NCBI GenBank assembly: GCA_029339195.1
Contig: JAPTJF010000487.1
Location: 1 to 45,059, forward strand
DNA length: 45,059 nucleotides
Direction of reading: 5' to 3'
Origin: Micractinium sp. NFX-FRZ
Taxonomy: Eukaryota > Chlorophyta > Trebouxiophyceae > Chlorellales > Chlorellaceae
Part shown: in pieces, positions 3,239 through 15,400 of the stretch
Layout: each line of letters begins with the position of its first letter
Position numbering within the stretch: position 1 is the stretch's first letter
The notes under the pieces: model-generated
Database searches by the model: none
What the model saw: only the letters and a program-made list of their open reading frames with translations
Told to the model about the DNA's origin: nothing
Position numbers and translations under genes: made by a program

Positions 3239-5977
3239 CGGCCGCGGTGGCAGCGGTGGCAGCGCAGTACGCCGCGGCCTCGGCGGCCGCGCAGCAGCAG
3301 TACGTTGCGGCGCAGCAGCAGGTGCTGCACCAGCAGTGGGCAGCAGCGGCGGCAGCGGCGGCGAGCGGGATGCAGTTTGCGGGGGCAGGGCAGTACTTCC
3401 AGCAGCCGCCGCAGCAGCACCCTGGGCAGCCGGCGCCGCTGCAGATCATGGTCACAAAGGTGGGCAGGGGAGGCAGGTGGCTTCTGCAAGGCTGGGCGGG
3501 TATGGCAAGGTGTGAGCGCACATCGCGTTTGATGGGTGTGTGGTCGGCGCCGGTGCAGGTTGTGGTGGCAAACGCAGGGACGGGGTGTGGTGTGTGTTGG
3601 GGGGGGCGGGAAGGGGAGGTGGGGGAGAGAGGGGGGATGGAGGCATTCCTGGTGCATGCCAGCTGTTCCTGGTCTGCCTGGGAGCAGCAGCTGGCGGACA
3701 AAAGAGCGCACGCCGTGCACCTGCCCCACCCGCCCTCTCACCCCTGCGCTGGCCCCCTCCTCCTTTCTCCTCTCGCCAACCTCCGGTGGAGACCTCCCGA
3801 CCCCCTGGGATCAGCAGCTGCCACATTTGATCAGCGGCATGAACCTGCATCTCCCGCCCTCCCACCCACCCGTGCCCCTGTCTGGTCCCTGGTGCCCCCT
3901 CCCCCTGTGCCCCTCCCTCTGCCCCACAGGACTTCCTGACCCCCTGGGAGCAGCAGCTGGCGGATGAGATCAACGCCATGAACCTGCCCGTGCACGTGGA
4001 GGTGGCCAGGAAGCCGCTGCCACCCGACGCCTCGCTGCTGCCTGGCATGCCCGACTCGCTGCTGCCGTCGGCGCCCGAGCTGGTGAGCGGGTGGGAGGGG
4101 ATGGGGAAGAAGGGCAGGGAGGGGAGGGAGGGAGGAAAGCAGGGAAAGGTGGGCAGGAGGGAGTAGGGGGCAGGCAGGGGAGGGAGGCAGGGGGAGGAAG
4201 GAAGGCACGGGAAGGGGCCCAGTCTGCTCCCTGGGGTGGCCGAGCTGCCAAGAGTTGGGCTAACATGCGCGCAGGCTGCACAGGGACATGGCTGGCAGCG
4301 CAGGAGGATGTTGCGCCCCTCCGGCCTCTGCAGCTGGGCGGGCGCAGCAGCTGCCGTCAGTGAGTGGACAAGCTGGTGCTTCCCTCTCGTTTGGTCTCAA
4401 ATATCCTTCCGTTCCGCAATGCCTCCCCGCAGCTGGGTGCGCGCAGCAGCTGGCGGCAGTATGTCGAGAAGATTGAGGAGCCAGGAGACTCCCGGGGCCT
4501 GCAGGTGCTGCTGCTGCTGCCGCCGCCGCTGCCCCTGCCGCTTGCAGCTGCTGCCCCCGCAAGGGCTGCTGACGCAGATGCTGATGTTGCAGCGCTGTGC
4601 CGCGCTGCGCTGTGCTGTGCTGTGCCAGTAACAAACTTGGTGCTGGATTTGCTGTGCTGCGCCGATGCCCCCATGGGCAGCGCCTGCAAGCTGGCTGCGC
4701 TGCACACCGTGGGTCTCTCCCTGTGGGCCACCTGAGCACACGTGCCCACCCACTGCATGACGCACACACGCATTGGTTGCACCGCACCAACGGCGCATGA
4801 GGTGCTCAGGTCGGCGGCCGCTGCCTGTGCACAACCCAATCGCAGGAGCTGCTGGATTGGTTTGGAAACGGCAACAGCCAGCTGCCGCCCGGCGCCGCGA
4901 CGCAGCAGAACAGCAAAGGTGCGTGCCCCAGCGTGCAGCACAGCACACGTGCCTGTGATTGCGTGCAGCACAGCACAGTTGCTTGTCCTTGCGCGCATGC
5001 CGGCAGTAAGGCAGGCAGGCGACTGCATGCCCGCCTGCCCGCCGGCATGCCGCAGCCGACGCTGAGCAGCCTGCCAGCAGCTGCCCTCGCTGCCCCCACA
5101 CCCTAAACACCCAGCTGCGCTCCGCCCTGCGCTCCGCCCTCTCCACCTTTCCATCCCCCCCTGCCCGGCGGCCCCTCAACTCCTCCCCGCGTCTCCCGCC
5201 TGCCCCGGCAGCCTGCAAAGGCATCCACCGTGGGCCTGGTCAACGCCCAACTGCAGCCGCCTCCCTCCTTTTGGCTTACTGCCCCCGCCCCGTCCCTGCC
5301 CTGCCCTGCCCCCATGCCGCCCTGCAGAGATGCCCGCCATGGGCAGCCGCCGGCTCACGCGCTCGCTCAGCAAGAGCTCCAGCGGCGGCAGCGGCAGCCT
5401 GCCTGGCGACCACCGGCAGCTGCTGGTGAAGCTGGTCAGCCGGGGGTTGGAGGCGCGGTCCAGCAGCGAGGAAGCCATGGCGGCGGCTGCCGCGGCTGCC
5501 GTGGCCAACGGCAATGGCCATGGCCATGGCAGCGGCCCCCTGATGGCCTCTGCACCCAACATGCCCCCGCCAGTGCGGGTTGACCCTCTGAAGCGCACGC
5601 GCAGCAGCCAGGGCGTGGCGCGCCGCAGCAGCGACCTGGAGCGCGCGGCGGCGGCGGCGGTGCAGCAGTCGGGCCTGGCGGCCGCGGCGGCTGCGGGGTA
5701 CACCTTTGGCAGCGGCGGCTTCCGCGCGCCCACCCCGCCGAGCGGCGGCACAGGCGCAGCAGCCGCAGCCGGCAACGGCCTGCCCGCAGCCGCCAGCGGC
5801 CGGCCGCCGCGCAACCCCGGCGGCTCATTGGTGCAGCCGCCTCCCTCGCTGTCCATCCCCCTGATTGAGCCTACCCCTCTGGGTCTGGACCGGGGCTTCT
5901 CTGACGTCCTCGTCACCCCCAGCTTCTCTTCCCAGGAGATTGCCATGCTGCTGGACGCACTGAAACCCAAGCCCTGA
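1388..5977 (+). CDS. R2R3-MYB transcription factor, FOUR LIPS/MYB88-like
   Basis: Nine exons: 1388-1417, 1638-1793, 2219-2295, 2649-2731, 2933-3459, 3930-4082, 4433-4504, 4846-4918 and 5328-5977 (606 aa; all phases agree, all GT-AG). The R2 repeat has Trp 7, 27 and 46, and R3 has Trp 59, 78 and 97, with the MYB spacing of 18-19 residues between Trps; TDNAVKNRW is a classic R3 recognition helix. A basic patch, RAKRRR (about 120-125), is a likely nuclear signal. It is followed by a Gln10 tract and Ala/Gln-rich sequence. The R2 helix QCRRRW, a short SWRQYVEKIEEPG/LLDWF segment and a C-terminal FSSQEIAMLLDAL motif recall plant FLP/MYB88, regulators of cell-cycle exit; that subfamily call is an inference. 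The start was chosen because exon 1 supplies WTAE to complete WTAEEDEQL. Introns 2, 5 and 6 carry decayed copies of neighbouring exons. Confidence 0.85.
2083..2231 (+). repeat. Tandem duplication of an intron 3' end plus exon start (MYB intron 2)
   Basis: Two copies of about 75 bp lie side by side. Each starts with ATTCTGACGCCCCGCCCT (2083 and 2156), continues through a pyrimidine tract, and ends in an acceptor followed by GATAATGCCACCTG (decoy, AG at 2136-2137) or GAGGATGCCACGCTG (real exon 3, AG at 2217-2218). Only the second copy keeps the MYB reading frame. Confidence 0.85.
3211..3238 (+). repeat. CAG triplet run coding polyglutamine in the MYB protein
   Basis: An uninterrupted run of about ten CAG codons sits in exon 5, inside a wider Ala/Gln-rich segment. 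Such tracts often vary in length between strains and act in transactivation; the latter is general knowledge, not shown here. Confidence 0.9.
3677..3850 (+). repeat. Two decayed copies of the MYB exon 6 start inside intron 5
   Basis: Exon 6 begins (3936 on) CTGACCCCCTGGGAGCAGCAG and continues to ATGAACCTGC. Copy one (3677-3724) keeps CCTGGGAGCAGCAGCTGGCG, then diverges and ends CACCTGC. Copy two (3797-3850) keeps GACCCCCTGGGATCAGCAGC and the far end GGCATGAACCTGC. Both lie upstream of pyrimidine-rich sequence. Neither preserves an open frame into exon 6. Confidence 0.85.
4331..4372 (+). repeat. Decayed copy of MYB exon 7 start inside intron 6
   Basis: This 42-bp stretch matches the acceptor and first bases of exon 7 (4430-4471): both read CAGCTGGG, then GCGCAGCAGCTG, then CAGT, ending in ACAAG or AGAAG. 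The echo contains an in-frame TGA and would not extend the MYB frame. Confidence 0.8.
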
Positions 5978-7958: not shown

Positions 7959-8005
7959 GCGTGCTGTGCCCTTGGCCTCCGCACAACAAAACACAAAACC
8001 CCACT

Positions 8006-8021
8006 GGTGTTATTCAACACC
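8006..8021 (+). terminator. Histone 3' hairpin of H3 copy 1
   Basis: GGTGTTATTCAACACC, 47 nt after the H3 stop, is followed by ACCCCTCTGCCGGAAAGAGC. The purine-rich GGAAAGAG sits where animal histone pre-mRNAs carry the U7-binding element. Confidence 0.92.
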
Positions 8022-8232
8022 ACCCCTCTGCCGGAAAGAGCTGTTCGATATGTGCATGTGCTGTTGCTGGCGAGCACCGGTGCTGCCTGCCTGTGCCAAA
8101 TGTCGCACTGGTATTGTTCACCTGTGCCTGTGCACTGCTGCTTGTCTCTGTGGCCCAGGCACCGACATCGCTGCAGGCCGGCAGCCTGCCCCCCACAACA
8201 GGAGGTGAGGCATGGGAGGTAAGCAGGCACAC

Positions 8233-8868
8233 ACCAGCGGAGGCCTGCTGACTCCCGCCTTGACTGGCAGTCATGTTTGTGTTTTGAGACGGTGCCGGCA
8301 CGAGCGGCGTTCTGAGCTTTAAATCCAAAGGATGGACACGAGCATTGAGCGCACCTCCTTGCAGTGCAAGGGTCAGGCACCGCCACTCACGAAGGCATCC
8401 CGCCAGCCGTGCCAGCCGTGCCGCGGGCCAGGCCCCTGCCTGCGACCCACACAGGCTGGACTTAGCACGATCAGGTCCATCACCTGGTGTGCCAAACTCA
8501 GGGCCCAGGGGCAGCATGATACCGTGCCCACCACTCACAGGAGCCGGTATGAACTCAGCGCCAGCAGCTGGGTGTGGGAGCAACTGTGAGAGCCGCATGA
8601 AGTGCAGAACGGATTCAGTCGTGGTTGTGCTTCAATGCAGCATGCCTGCCCTGCTGTATACAGCTGTTGCATTGACGTTATGCCAGACAATGAAGTTGTG
8701 GCACAACTGCAGCGCGCCACCGCTCAGCGCCGCCCCCATCTTCCGCTGAACCTGTTTGCTACACACTCGCAGCGCTGTTCGTTGCTTCTTCTTCTTCTTC
8801 TTCTTCTTCTTCTTCTTCTGCGGCCGCAGAGGCACCCTTTGTGTCTGTCTGTGTTTGAGTGAGGCAGC
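8233..8868. other. Intergenic region upstream of the selenoprotein-like gene
   Basis: There is no convincing gene. An uninterrupted TTC run of about 35 bp (8785-8819) lies 50 bp before the next ATG, probably within its promoter or 5' UTR. Upstream open frames lack domain features. Confidence 0.5.
8785..8819 (+). repeat. (TTC)n microsatellite in promoter or 5' UTR
   Basis: About eleven and a half TTC units without interruption, ending in TTCTGCGGCCGC, 50 bp upstream of the ATG at 8869. It is a likely length-polymorphic site. Confidence 0.9.
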
Positions 8869-11342
8869 ATGGGCACAACACTCTCGGCACTGCTGGGGCG
8901 CGCCTCTCCCCGTGCCTCGGCGCGCTTCCTGCCTCGGCTGTCGCCTGAAGGCCCCGATTTCGTGCGCACAAACGCCACCGGGTGCCCGCCTGTGGCGGCG
9001 CCAGCAGCTTCCGCCTCTGCCGCTGGAGCCAGCGGCGGCGGCGCTGCCGGCGTCCCAGCACCCACCGACAGCGGCGCCCCGCCGCCAGCTGGCGTCGAGC
9101 TTTCAGATGCATATGACAAACTGCGTGGCCAGCAGGTGTACCTGGTCTCCACGCAGCAGCCAGTGGACATCACCTCGCTGTGGGGGACGGAGCAGCGTGC
9201 CGTGCTAGTGTTTGGGCGCCACATGGGTGAGAGCCTGCAAGGGTGGGCACAAGGCGGGCTCTGGGGGAGGCAGCACCTGCGGTCCCAGCTCTGTAGCACT
9301 GATCTCCTGGTCATGTGGTGGTGCCCGCACATTTGCCTGACTGGCTGCCCGCAAGCAGGGGCCCTGCTGCCGGGCAGGCACAGGCACTGCAGGCCAGCAG
9401 GCGGGGCAGGCACAGCAGTGCGTTCTGCCTGCTGCTCCCACGCACGCCCATGCATGTATACATTGCTCTCATGGGCACCCACTGCCTGCACCCACTTGTG
9501 CAGGCTGACTCTGGTGCTGGGAGCTGGCACGGCAGTTGCACCGCGACGTCATGCCAGCTCTCGATGCAGCAGCAGTGAAGCTCTACATGGTCACAATTGG
9601 GAAGGCAGAGGTGAGGGGCCACAGTACGTCCCTCTCGTCGCCTGCGATCGGGTGTGTGTGCAGCCTGGGGGCAGGTGCGGGGGCTTTATGTGCAAAAGGT
9701 GAGGCGCGTGCTGCCGTGCAGCTGCGCGCGGTGTGTGCTTGTATAGAGGTGGGACGGGGCATTGCGCGGGACTGGCACCATTGTGAGGCGGCGACATGTG
9801 AAGCACACACCGGCTTCAGGCAGCAGCACTGGCAGGCCCGTCCCAACAAACCAGGGCGGCATGCTCCCAGGCTGTCTTGCCAGCGGCATGATGCTGACGC
9901 ACCCCTGCTGGGCACGCTGCTGTGTCTAGCTACAGGCTTGGTGCCATGCAGTGGCCAGCCTGCTTTTGCTGGCCCATCTGCTTGCACCTGCTGGCCCATC
10001 TGCTTGCACCTGCTGGCCCAGGTGCTAGCCCGCCCTTTAGCATCCACAGGTCCCTGCTCTTCCAAGCCGGCCCGCCTGGCTGTGCTGCACCTGCGCCCCT
10101 CCCTTTTCCCCCGCGTCCCCCGCCCGCAGTCGGGCCTCACATTTGTGCAGAAGACGGGCTTCCCTGCAGACCGCTTGCTGGCAGACCCACAGAACGCCTG
10201 CTACGAGGCGCTGGCGTTCAGGTGGGGGGGCACCTGTCCCGGCGTGCTCATGTGCATCCTTACACACTTGCGCGTGTACAGTGCCCCCATGCATTGTCAG
10301 TACCAGCCGACCGTACTCTAGCAGCCTGTGCATAGCCTGTGATCTATTCCCTCCCCACTTTCTGGCCACCCAGGCGCGGCATCTGGCCCACCTTCTTCGA
10401 TGCCGCCAGCCGGGCAGCCATCAAGCAGCGCAGGGAGAAGCCGGGGGGTGACGCAGATATGCAGGAGGTGCTCAAGGTGAGAGGGTGCGAGGGTGGGCAG
10501 TATTCATTTCCACACCATTGCAGGATGTCTGCTGCCTGCTGCTTGGCTGCGCGCTGCCTGCTGGTGGTGCTGCCCTACTGTCCTACTAGGGGAAGGCACA
10601 CAGGTGAGAGTGTGCATGGGAAGCACGGGGGTGGGGACTTACAGGTGAGAGTGTGCATGTGAAGCACGGGGGTGTGGACTTGCAGGTGAGAGTGTGCATG
10701 TGAAGCACGGGGGTGGGGACTTGTAGCTTGCTGCTTGTGAGAAGCCTGGCAGGGGGTGTGCACCTCACAGGAGTAACAAAGGTGATTGGAGTGGCTGTGT
10801 GGTGGGTGAGTGAGTGGCAGCCACTGGCTGCCTGAGCGTGTGGAGGGGCTAGCGTGAGGGCAGGCGGCCCCTCCCGCCACCCCCGTCTGCATTGCCCGCG
10901 GCCTACAACACTACTGCTGCCCCCCATATCCAAAGAGGGGTGCTGGTGCCTCCCCCCTGCGCGACTCGGATCCCCCCACGTGGTGCACCCCACCCACCTA
11001 CCCACTCGGCTGCAGGCCTACAACCCGCTGACGCTGGTGCCGCCCCGCATCAAGCAAGTGCTGTTCCAGGGAGGGGCGCTGGTGTTCGAGGGGCCCCGCC
11101 TGCTGTGGGCCCATTACGACCCTGCCTCCTCGGCACACGCCGACCTGGGACGAATGGTGCAGGTGCGCTGCCCTTTCTCCTCACAGCTTCCTTCCACCCA
11201 TGCATGCACTGACCACGGGCTGCCAGCTTGGGTTCGTGGTACTGGGGGTGGGGGTTTCAGAATGTGCAAACTGCTGCAGCACCTTTGAGTAACAGAAGTG
11301 CGCCCCTGCATGCGCGTGCAGGTGGCAACCGAGGGCAGATAA
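8869..11342 (+). CDS. SELU: Selenoprotein U / PRXL2-like thioredoxin-fold protein with in-frame UGA (Sec121)
   Basis: Six exons: 8869-9226, 9504-9610, 10130-10221, 10374-10476, 11016-11162 and 11322-11342 (275 residues counting one Sec). The protein is an AhpC/TSA_2 (PRXL2/AAED1/FAM213) thioredoxin-fold oxidoreductase. LWGTEQRAVLVFGRHMG is the first strand, then the active site reads G-UGA-L-W-C-W-E-L-A-R-Q-L; the UGA (9506-9508) occupies the first Cys of the family CxxC, as in SelU proteins. KLYMVTIG, FVQKTGFPADRLLADP and GGALVFEGPRLLWAHYDPASS follow the family order. No alternative AG acceptor removes the TGA and still keeps the second Cys. Exon phases otherwise agree. MGTTLS at the N-terminus fits an N-myristoylation signal. 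A SECIS-like hairpin lies at 11780-11879. A nonfunctional allele or a base error is the alternative. Confidence 0.8.
9956..10022 (+). repeat. Short tandem repeat in intron 2 of the SelU-like gene
   Basis: The 22-bp unit TGCTGGCCCATCTGCTTGCACC occurs twice, flanked by partial copies. No coding consequence is expected. Confidence 0.8.
10601..10723 (+). repeat. Three 41-bp repeats, each carrying a splice-donor-like CAGGTGAGAG
   Basis: Units start at 10601, 10642 and 10683 and read CAGGTGAGAGTGTGCATG followed by GAAGCACGGGGGTG. They lie in intron 4, about 125 bp after the real donor (AAGGTGAGAGGGTGCG at 10474), which they resemble. Confidence 0.85.
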
Positions 11343-11779
11343 AAAGTGCTGCTGCCAAGAGCCCTGCTGTGGTCATGCTGTGGTGTGGACTGCGTTACTG
11401 CGGCCCTGCCTCCTCAGCGGAAGACAACCTAGAATGTCTGGTGCAGGCGGCGACGCAGAGGCGCGCTGCTGCGCCTGCTGTGGTGCTGCCCCTCGGGCCC
11501 GCTACGAGCTGCCACCTCAGCGCATGCTGACCTGGACCTTCAAGTGCATGTGGCTCCAGCAAGGTGCTGAATGTGCTGAGACACTGACAACCAGTGGCTT
11601 GCTCGGCAGCTGCCTCGGCTGTGTGGCGTAGTGGGTGCGCCACCACACTGCCCGCTTGCCTGTTGGCTTTGGCTGGCCTTCCCTACTCCCTCAGCATGCC
11701 ATCAACAGCCACTTCCCTTTGCTTGGCATCCGTTGTATGTTATGATTCTTCAACACGCTCTGCAGTGCAGCAGGCATCG

Positions 11780-11879
11780 GCAGCAGCGCCGCTCGCGTAT
11801 GACGCTGCCAGCCGAAAGGCACAAGGTCGAACTGGCCCTGGCCAGGCTGGCAGCCGACCCCCTCGGGCGCCCCTGCTGC
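11780..11879 (+). ncRNA. Candidate eukaryotic SECIS element in the 3' UTR
   Basis: It begins 438 nt after the stop codon. Helix I pairs GCAGCAG (11780-11786) with CTGCTGC (11873-11879), and CGCC (11787-11790) with GGCG (11866-11869). An internal loop follows, then the SECIS core ATGA (11799-11802) opposite CGAC (GA at 11856-11857). Helix II has ten perfect base pairs: GCTGCCAGCC (11804-11813) with GGCTGGCAGC (11845-11854), after one C-C mismatch. The apical loop opens with GAAAGG, placing unpaired AAA 12 nt after ATGA, and a mini-stem GGTC/GGCC makes it resemble form 2. Spacing and motifs all match the eukaryotic consensus; folding was judged by eye. Confidence 0.8.
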
Positions 11880-12123
11880 TGCGGGATGCCATGCTGCTCT
11901 GTGGTGCTGCTCCACGGGCTTTCTTTGTGTAGGTTCTTGCTCTGGTCTGGCTTGTCAGTACTAACATGTTTGATTCTCTAAGTAAAAGTTTGAGCCTTCA
12001 CCGCACACCCGACACGCCTGCTTTGCTCAGTTTAGGCTGGCGGGTTGCAGCTGGGTGCCTTTGCAGCTTGCCAGGTCGTTACACAAGTGTGGTGTCATTT
12101 CATAGGCCATGTTCACACCAAAT

Positions 12124-12150
12124 TGTAACATCTCCTGCTGATAAATGTAA
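12124..12150 (+). terminator. TGTAA polyadenylation motifs after the SelU-like gene
   Basis: TGTAA occurs at 12124-12128 and 12146-12150. TGTAA is the usual near-upstream element of green-algal poly(A) sites. Cleavage shortly downstream would give an 800-nt 3' UTR that includes the SECIS-like hairpin. Confidence 0.6.
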
Positions 12151-12404
12151 AGTAAGGACGGGCTGAAGCCAAACTGAACGGCTAGGGTTTTGCCTGCTTG
12201 GCGTGTCGCCGTGGCGTGCCTGCTGTGCGCCTCATCCAACCTCTCGGCGGGCGCTAAGCCTGCTCGCACCCATTGTGCAACTTCCTGCAGCCCTGAAGTC
12301 GCTTGGTGCGGTACCGGACCACCCTCGGAAAGGGTGCATGCCACGCGCGCGCGGGGTTTTCCGGCACAGCGGCGTCCACCTGCGGGGTTTGAAAGCGCTA
12401 CACC

Positions 12405-15400
12405 ATGCCTAGCAGCGACTACTGGGACAGGGGGGAGCGCGTGGCGCCGGCCACACCGCCCCTCGTTGCGCCGCTGCTCTTGCTGCCGCCCCCGCTCACG
12501 CCGCCCCAGACGCCCCCCCAGACGCCGCGCCTGCCTCCCGCCCCCGCCCCACTAGCTGCCCCCCCAGCCGACACCAGCCTCTTCGACTTGCCCGAGCCTC
12601 TCATTGACATAATCTTCAGCCGCCTGGGGCTGTGCCACCTGGCGACTGCGAGCTGCGCCAGCTCAGCCTTTCGTGCCCTCTGCCAGGTGAGGGGCCGGGC
12701 AGACACTTTGTGGGGGCAGGGCTGAGCCTGGGCAAGGCAGCGACACGTGCGACCTGAATTCGAGATGTACGCATGTGTAGCCCCGGCAAGCCAGCACATT
12801 CCACAGCACACATACCCATGTGCTACTGTGCTACTGTGCTACTACCCAAGCAGGCCTTACTTACATGCCAGCCAAACCGTGTCTTGAGAGCGTCCCCCTT
12901 GCCATCTCGTGCAGCGTGCGCTGGGCCTGAAGCAGGAACTGGCAGCTGAGCAGGACCTCTCGCTGCTGCCACGTCAGCACAACTTCCTGCTGCTCCTGGG
13001 GCCTGGAGGCGGCGCCAGCAGCGGGGCCGGCGCTGCTGGCGGCGCCGATGGCAGCGGCAGCGGCGCCGGTTGCGGCGTCTCCTTGCGCCGCCGTGTGCTG
13101 GGATACCTGCCCGCCGCGCTGCACTATGCCAGGTGGGCAGTTCCTTCCTTCCTTCCTCCTCTCCTGGCTCGGACTCTGGGTGTGTCCTGTTGTGCTGGAA
13201 ACCGGGCGTGCATCGGGTGGCAGGCGGTACCGAGCGGGCATGTGGCGACCCACCTGGCAGCTTCCCTCCATCCCCTCCCTAGGCCCTGAGCCCAGCCCAG
13301 CCTCTCACAGTCTTCCTCCCCCTGCGCGCTCCCCCCTCCGTTTTTGTCCACCTGCAGCATGCACTGCCACGCTCTGCAGCGGCTGCATCTGGAGCTGCCG
13401 CCCCCGCAGGTGCCGCTGTTGGCGGCGGCAGACGCCGTGGAGCGAGCGGTGGCGGGGGAGGCGTGGCAGCCAGCGGCGGCGCTGATGTGGGGCGATGCGC
13501 TGGACAGCGAGTGCCCGCCTGTGGACGGCTATCTGCTGAAACTGCTGGCACAGGTGCTGGGCTGTGCTGCGCTGCGCTGTGCTGCGCTGTGCTGCGCTGT
13601 ACTGCGCCGTGTCGTGCTGTGTTGAGCTGTGCTGTAGTGCGCCGTGTCGTTCTGTGCCAAGCTATGCTGTGCCGTGTGCTGTGCTGTGCTTTGAGAGAAC
13701 GCTCTGGAGGAGCGATTCCCGTCTTGCCTCTTGCTGGCTTGCCTCTTGCTGAAGCTGCTGGCACGGGTGCGTGCCGCGCTGTGCTGCACTGTGCCGCGCA
13801 CTGCGCTGACCTGTGCCATTCGTGCTGTGCTCGCTGCGGCGAGTAAAGTCAGTTCCTTTTAAGCGGCATCCTTTTGCGGTGTGCCGCTGCTTGAGCCGAT
13901 TTCAGCTGTCTCTCGCCGCACCCACTGGCTGCAGTGCTGCCCCGAACTGCGGTCCCTGCGCCTCGTCAACATCACAAACAATGCCACATGCAACCGGCTG
14001 GTGAGGAGTGCGCCAGCCAAGGGGAGCAGGGCTAAGGCGTGCCACTGCCCACTTTAGCTGGTCACGAGTGGAGGCAGCATCCCAGCAGCTGGACCTGTGG
14101 CAATGAATGGCTGCTACCTCCCTCCCTGCCTCCCTTCTTCCTCGCTTCCTTGCTTCCTTGCTTATTTCTTCCTGACTTCCTTCCCTCCTTCTTTCCCCTC
14201 CCTCCTTCCTTCCCTCCTTCTTTCCCCTCCCTCCTCCTTCCCTCCCTCCTCCTAACTAACCACCTTCCTTCCAACTTCCCTGCTGCCCCGCTGCCCGCAG
14301 ATCCGCCCCAAGGACAGCTGCCTGGCGCTGCTGGCCCGCCGCTGCCCGCTGCTGGAGGAGCTGGTCCTCGGTGAGGCGGCGCGCCACAACGTCTCTGTAC
14401 TGCTTTTTGTACTGCGTTACTTTTGCCGCCCAGCAGGCATTTGTACTGCTTTTCCCTGGGCCCCCAGAAGGCTTCAGCAGTACATGCCTAGGGTCCGAAC
14501 TGCCCACTCCCCTGCCGCTGCGGGGCGGTGGAAATGCGTCACACGGCTGGGCAGCGGCCGACAGCAGCGCCACTTCCCCGTACAGGCATCTCCCAATCCC
14601 AAACTCCCCCTCTGCCTGCTGCCCCCTTCGCACCCCACCCCGCCCCGCCCCTGGTGCAGGCCACCGCGGCGGACAGGACTGCATGTTTGACCCCTCCTCC
14701 CCTTTCTACCTGGAGGATGTGACCGATGCGGGCCTGAGGGCGGTGGCCCAGCACTGCGGCCGCCTGAGGTGAGGGGGCAGCTCTGCCACACGAGTGCCTG
14801 CCTGCGCCTGCTTCCGATGCAGCAAGCTGTCACGCAGCAGCTTGGGATGCAGCAGCTTGGGGTGCAGCAGGTTGAGATGCGGCAGTTGGGATGCAGCAGC
14901 TTGGGCATGCAGGCTTGGGCATGCAGGCAGCGTGGTCGGGAGGGGGACGGGGACAGGATGGAGCCAGCGAGCCGTCCCGGCACTGGGCAACGGCAGCAAG
15001 GGTGCAAGGGTGGCAGCGGGGCAGTCGCAGGGGCTGAGGGGGCCAACCGGCGGGCGTTGTCCCTGCTTGCCTGGATGCATGCTGACGCCTGCCTGCCTGC
15101 CCGCCTGCACTTGTGCGCCCCTCTGGCGGCGTCCCGACCCATACCTGCGTGGACCCTGCTGCCCTGCAGGCACCTGGGGCTGCTGCGCTGCTCGCGTGTC
15201 GGCGACCAGGGTCTGGCGGCGGTGGCACGGGTGAGGGGCAGCTGCTGTTGCTGCCTCCCAGCGGCCCATCCACAGCGGGAGTGCACAGCAGCCGCTGCTG
15301 CTGACCCCGCTCCGATTTCAACACCAGTCGCGACTGCACGCCCTGCCTCCTGCTTGTCCCCTCCACCTCTGCTCCCCATGAGCCATGCTTACTGCAGGTC

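Follow-up and report, generated by a model that had tools for sequence, protein, structure and literature searches.

A probable selenocysteine-containing SELENOU/PRXL2 gene, with two paralogues, in the green alga Micractinium sp. NFX-FRZ

Contig JAPTJF010000487.1 of Micractinium sp. NFX-FRZ carries, at positions 8869 to 11342, a gene whose reading frame is interrupted by a single UGA. We analyzed the contig as one 45-kb stretch, hereafter the window (contig C487 of the 66.07-Mb, 838-contig assembly used for our own-genome searches). An earlier reading of this DNA, which we call the original prediction, had proposed a probable selenoprotein U. The sequence indicates that this UGA is very probably decoded as selenocysteine (Sec); the gene would then encode a Sec-bearing protein of the SELENOU/PRXL2 (AhpC-TSA_2) family. 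We draw this from the location of the UGA at the first catalytic cysteine of the gene's relatives, together with a hairpin in the predicted 3' untranslated region (3'UTR) that resembles a selenocysteine insertion sequence (SECIS). Directly visible in the sequence are the UGA, a frame that is intact on either side of it, and the hairpin; elsewhere in the genome lie two paralogues that likewise have a UGA and a hairpin, as well as tRNA-Sec, eEFSec and SepSecS genes. The proposal of a selenoprotein U thus gains support from the UGAs of the paralogues, the hairpin, the machinery genes and the coding constraint downstream of the UGA. The SECIS in the 3'UTR, which the original prediction did not mention, is the strongest addition to it.

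The gene and its in-frame UGA

Our gene model has six exons on the plus strand, joined by canonical GT-AG splices. Exon 1 (8869..9226) is an open frame that begins at a predicted start codon, encodes an Ala-rich N-terminus and reads ...VYLVSTQQPVDITSLWGTEQRAVLVFGRHMG; the own-genome protein search matched it with query residues 1-125. It ends ACATGG/gtgaga (slashes mark splice sites), so that G and GC join across the junction to give Gly, followed directly by TGA. Exon 2 (9504..9610; gtgcag/GCTGAC to GCAGAG/gtgagg), which could be aligned to homologues, completes the glycine of FGRHM-G and continues UGA-L-W-C-W-E-L-A-R-Q-L. The TGA occupies 9506..9508, with CTC TGG TGC (L-W-C) after it, and would encode selenocysteine 121, the first position of a UxxC motif that is aligned with Cys in homologues and with UGA in paralogues. 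This is where the original prediction had placed it, on the first Cys of the PRXL2/SelU CxxC in exon 2 (G-UGA-L-W-C-W-E-L), and the placement holds. The remaining exons are exon 3 (10130..10221; ccgcag/ to GTTCAG/gtgggg), exon 4 (10374..10476; acccag/ to CTCAAG/gtgaga), exon 5 (11016..11162; ctgcag/ to GTGCAG/gtgcgc) and exon 6 (11322..11342; gtgcag/GTGGCA), which ends in VATEGR and the stop codon TAA (11340-11342). The ending is similar to those of paralogue B, described below (VATRGL, then stop), and of a Micractinium tetrahymenae homologue, P0004 (ATAGL). Once spliced, the frame runs for 275 residues to the TAA, with the UGA as its sole internal stop.

An alternative acceptor that removes the UGA yet keeps the CxxC would yield a Cys form of the protein, a case that the original prediction had raised. 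We scanned every in-frame AG from 9230 to 9599 with the donors fixed at 9226 and 9610, these being the only donors paired. Besides 9504, there are six upstream in-frame acceptors (9234, 9270, 9297, 9378, 9384 and 9393), all of which retain the UGA, and four downstream ones (9558, 9570, 9573 and 9576), all of which drop the entire UxxC. Since each acceptor either retains the UGA or loses the motif, a Cys form is unreachable by acceptor choice with these donors, and we rejected alternative splicing to such a form.

Two repeats lie in or near the gene. A perfect CTT microsatellite of 11.7 copies (8785-8819) ends 49 nt before the predicted start codon, and intron 4 holds three 41-nt tandem repeats (10601-10723) whose unit starts with the splice-donor-like CAGGTGAGAG.

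Three protein searches gave a homologue set of 40 distinct proteins (P0002 to P0041); the Ala-rich N-terminus had swamped the first search, and the repeat search used residues 76-270 as the query. We counted a homologue as spanning the motif if it contains G-x-x-x-C-[WQ]-[EQ]. All 14 such proteins, with Coccomyxa and Bryopsis among the named ones, have Cys at the UGA position. The motif is absent from the other 26, some of which, among the metagenomic proteins, may simply be fragments; in P0020 a G-C is followed by an insertion. A comparison of relatives for UGA or UGC, as the original prediction had suggested, therefore gives UGA in both own-genome paralogues and Cys in every spanning homologue. 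In three protein models from related algae, the active site itself is missing: P0004 of Micractinium tetrahymenae lacks exactly the seven residues GUxxCWE, P0018 of Chlorella variabilis begins ~15 residues past the UGA position, and P0022 of Parachlorella kessleri skips across it. Judged from these protein models rather than from the DNA of those species, the gaps seem to reflect the behavior of gene finders at a UGA. Viral contigs yielded 73 stretches that fit the pattern, with no relative among them.

With Cys in place of the UGA, the translation matched Pfam PF13911 (AhpC-TSA_2) at 57.3 bits, above the cut-off of 27, and the top solved fold was PRXL2B (E value of 1.3e-6 in a profile search of solved structures), in agreement with the PRXL2/SelU family assigned by the original prediction. 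A Cys-containing relative was 16-18% identical to human PRXL2B by structural alignment. In the single-sequence search of the Protein Data Bank, menin chains ranked first through the low-complexity N-terminus and were discarded; PRXL2B there reached only an E value of 0.027. The motif lies before the first active-site helix of a thioredoxin/peroxiredoxin-like fold and has the form of a CxxC with UGA at its first position (UGA-L-W-C), whose decoding as Sec we infer. We expect the product to be a thioredoxin/peroxiredoxin-like domain in which Sec occupies the N-terminal end of that helix and would pair, in a selenenylsulfide, with the Cys three positions further along; it would act as a thiol oxidoreductase or a peroxide-reducing enzyme. 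The AhpC-TSA_2 domain and the active-site UxxC are shared with SELENOU/PRXL2 proteins (SelU1-3; PRXL2A, PRXL2B and PRXL2C). This Micractinium genome differs in having three Sec paralogues, and we assign the window gene to the family rather than to subfamily 1, 2 or 3, the three into which PMC3473315 splits SelU.

Paralogues and the downstream hairpin

The own-genome protein search revealed two further genes, paralogue B on contig C98 and paralogue C on contig C6. When the PF13911 profile was run on the genome, only the C98 paralogue was reported; the window gene, whose coding sequence is broken up into short exons, escaped it. Paralogue B (locus L035, C98:81001-88000) has exons at 1354-1689, 2072-2371 and 2671-2832 and reads ...FGRHM/G-UGA-L-F-C-W-E-L-A-R-Q-L. 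Paralogue C (locus L034, C6:351001-359000; 3843-5743, minus strand) has six exons, with one intron apparently using a GC donor, and reads ...FGRSMG-UGA-P-F-C-W-E-L. Both genes carry UGA at the homologous position, and the remainder of each frame is intact. The original prediction had argued from the shared frame of the flanking segments that the stop is not random. The rest of the frame is indeed open, and we exclude a chance origin mainly because the two paralogues have UGA at the homologous position.

Nonsynonymous-to-synonymous rate ratios (dN/dS; Nei-Gojobori method, custom script) were estimated separately upstream and downstream of the UGA. For the window gene, they were ~0.30 upstream (44 codons) and ~0.34 downstream (151 codons) against paralogue B, and ~0.71 and ~0.40 against paralogue C; between B and C they were ~1.04 and ~0.41, the upstream figures resting on 44 codons only. 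All three pairwise comparisons show coding constraint beyond the UGA.

In paralogue B, the end of the intron and the start of the UGA exon occur in three tandem copies (L035 1783-2101; 57 nt in register, spacing 133 and 129). Copy 1 (1783-1839) has TGC, encoding Cys. Copy 2 (1916-1972) has TGA, an acceptor and a possible donor (GCTG/GTGCGT), and could be a 24-nt microexon encoding GULFCWEL. Copy 3 (2045-2101) has TGA and runs on into the exon. The Cys copy has no GT donor close by and is therefore more probably a remnant than a functional alternative exon. It is conceivable, if improbable, that with this triplication and a set of three Sec-SelU genes, splicing could select either a Cys or a Sec version of the active site, or place two UxxC motifs one after the other, and so act as a selenium-dependent exon-choice switch.

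The predicted SECIS element of the window gene (11799..11857, plus strand) begins 457 nt after the stop codon, within a 3'UTR whose extent is likewise predicted. Its elements, in order, are ATGA, a single C, a 10-bp helix, a bulged AA, a mini-stem and GA. It was the sole match, on both strands of the window, to a strict SECIS-core descriptor that we wrote ourselves; 30 dinucleotide shuffles (2.70 Mb) gave 3 matches, all with lower scores. We also ran the descriptor on seven loci (L034-L040). There it recovered a hairpin 230 nt after the stop of paralogue B (L035 3062-3114) and matched once in an unrelated locus (L040, minus strand). The paralogue C hairpin (L034 3665-3618, minus strand) has a helix with a bulge, which the strict descriptor disallows; this descriptor missed it, as did a relaxed run. 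Having been recognized by eye, it does not count as independently discovered, and our covariance model R1 matches it by construction.

Covariance model R2, built from the hairpins of the two paralogues only, found the window hairpin at 45.8 bits (E value of 3.7e-8); its next-best match in the window scored 15.3 bits (E value of 0.19). The 3'UTRs of the window gene and paralogue B gave one low-E match (2.8e-11; 77.5% over 80 columns), which starts at the ATGA. Minimal-fold z scores were -3.69 for the window hairpin and -4.09 and -3.05 for the other two, and across the three hairpins 94.3% of 35 cells were paired, with 2 pairs changed on both sides. The ATGA/AA/GA core and the mini-stem above the AA are shared with the type II SECIS of green algae; PMC2375036 describes a long mini-stem for Ostreococcus and a number of Chlamydomonas SECIS. 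The Micractinium hairpins differ in the flanks ATGACGC...GCCGACCC, common to all three genes, in a C-C apposition beside the core and in drawing no Rfam SECIS_1 report. Through hairpin 11799-11857, a SECIS-binding protein and eEFSec-GTP-Sec-tRNA would be brought to ribosomes that reach the UGA. Past the hairpin stand two TGTAA pentamers (12124..12150, plus strand; starts 12124 and 12146), of 6 on the plus strand of the window. We take TGTAA to be the green-algal polyadenylation signal, and these two are possible signals downstream of the SECIS. TGTAA lies 3' of the hairpin in all three genes, and paralogue B has another that overlaps its stop codon.

Selenocysteine machinery in the genome

The genome has tRNA-Sec, eEFSec and SepSecS. 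The tRNA-Sec gene (anticodon UCA, contig C20) scored 67.9 bits against a cut-off of 47; a second candidate on C5 was over the RF01852 cut-off but was identified as tRNA-Leu by ARAGORN and was set aside. SepSecS is represented on C115 by six exon matches above the cut-off. Matches to the selB model TIGR00475 fell on the plastid contig C838, on a C61 gene that reads as eIF2-gamma and, weakly, on three further places, so we sought eEFSec with PF21208. This model matched on C93 at 27.8 bits (cut-off of 27), where we read the exon translations, and the joined G-domain piece had human eEFSec as its best solved match (E value of 2.8e-39). Of the components named in the original prediction, these three are thus present, and SBP2 is the one that was not found with PF01248 or a human fragment.

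A selenophosphate synthetase-like gene lies on C13 (L047, C13:282501-290500), with four exon matches (best E value of 1.5e-12, 52.3 bits). The model also matches in 14 of 14 control genomes, above the cut-off in 2. The gene is apparently a Cys form (CGGCGSK), with Cys at the position where SPS2 may have Sec. Glutathione peroxidase is encoded at three loci (L036, L037 and L038, on C5, C229 and C450), all with Cys in NVASxCG by eye; the C450 exons score slightly under the Pfam cut-off. The three GPX genes detected in this genome, which also holds the Sec-SelU candidates, thus read as Cys forms.

Alternative explanations and context

Several results weigh against a selenoprotein. The selenophosphate synthetase-like matches are each below the whole-protein cut-off of 125, and a PSTK-like frame on C69 (E value of 1.5e-17, 68.2 bits) is below its cut-off of 382 bits. 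SBP2 was not found in the genome with PF01248 and a human SBP2 fragment, neither a strong test: PF01248 gave 6 matches, which on visual inspection read as RPL7A, RPL30, NHP2, SNU13 (two exons) and RPS12, and the fragment had no genome match. At the hairpin, Rfam SECIS_1 gave no match within 8000-13000 or 11700-11950, and its one genome-wide match was weak and elsewhere (22.9 bits, C34). Fold z scores with longer flanks were weaker (-1.74 for the window hairpin, -2.83 and -2.13 for the others), the 3'UTRs of the window gene and paralogue C shared no low-E nucleotide match, and the modest covariation was equaled by 48 of 500 shuffles, so covariation alone is weak support. Regarding SBP2, unicellular green algae have a form without the N-terminal extension according to PMC2746813, and PMC6627142 describes SBP2 sequences on very long branches and one alga that bears selenoproteins but in which no SBP2 was identified. 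Given these reports of divergence, the absence of SBP2 is not established here.

The standard code reads UGA as a stop, and with SBP2 not located, the gene could be a pseudogene or encode a truncated protein of 120 residues. We consider this very improbable given that the downstream exons are all open with canonical splices, that dN/dS downstream of the UGA is ~0.34 (against B) and 0.40 (against C), and that each of the three paralogues has the UGA in an otherwise intact frame and is followed by a SECIS-like hairpin. TGA and TGC differ by one base, which is all that an assembly or sequencing error would require; such an error is scarcely credible when TGA stands at the same codon in the C98 and C6 paralogues and the M. 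tetrahymenae, C. variabilis and P. kessleri models omit the same point too, and it would leave the SECIS without explanation. A different question is whether the Sec protein, within the Prx-like-2 superfamily, sits closer to the SelL branch than to SelU. The sole NCBIfam match was NF040769, a SelL-related redox protein (E value of 3.9e-12, 46.1 bits), with local similarity over residues 95-196, and the family labels of relatives vary (that of Coccomyxa is 'probable peroxiredoxin-like 2C'). The score is far under the curated cut-off of 120 bits, however, and the window protein has one Sec in a UxxC, whereas the SelL motif is UxxU, with two. PF13911 was passed, and the top solved fold, PRXL2B, is SelU3 in the naming of PMC3473315. 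We therefore regard SelL membership as unlikely and retain SELENOU/PRXL2.

Sec forms of SelU have already been recorded in algae. PMC2375036 records SelU, as Sec forms, from both Ostreococcus species and, with two members, from Thalassiosira, and PMC7539508 (section 5) reports SELENOU Sec forms in over half of the 36 algal genomes it covers; the gene is accordingly a further member of a known family. Our literature searches on Micractinium selenoproteins and Chlorella SelU gave no title or abstract start that describes it, although supplementary tables may list orthologues, and a term search of the main text of PMC9922002 (Micractinium rhizosphaerae NFX-FRZ) found no 'selen'. PMC7539508, in the same section, places Trebouxiophyceae among the groups with 0-5 selenoproteins, and our three Sec-SelU candidates are added to a class so described. 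Automatic annotation seems to miss this kind of protein in related algae, where the M. tetrahymenae, C. variabilis and P. kessleri models omit the same active site, and reading of the raw sequence can recover selenoproteins lost in this way. Such algae could be used for selenium-labelling tests.

Elsewhere in the window, the histone 3'UTR stem-loop model matched weakly at 8001-8047 (23.3 bits, under the gathering score of 34), perhaps marking the end of an upstream histone gene.
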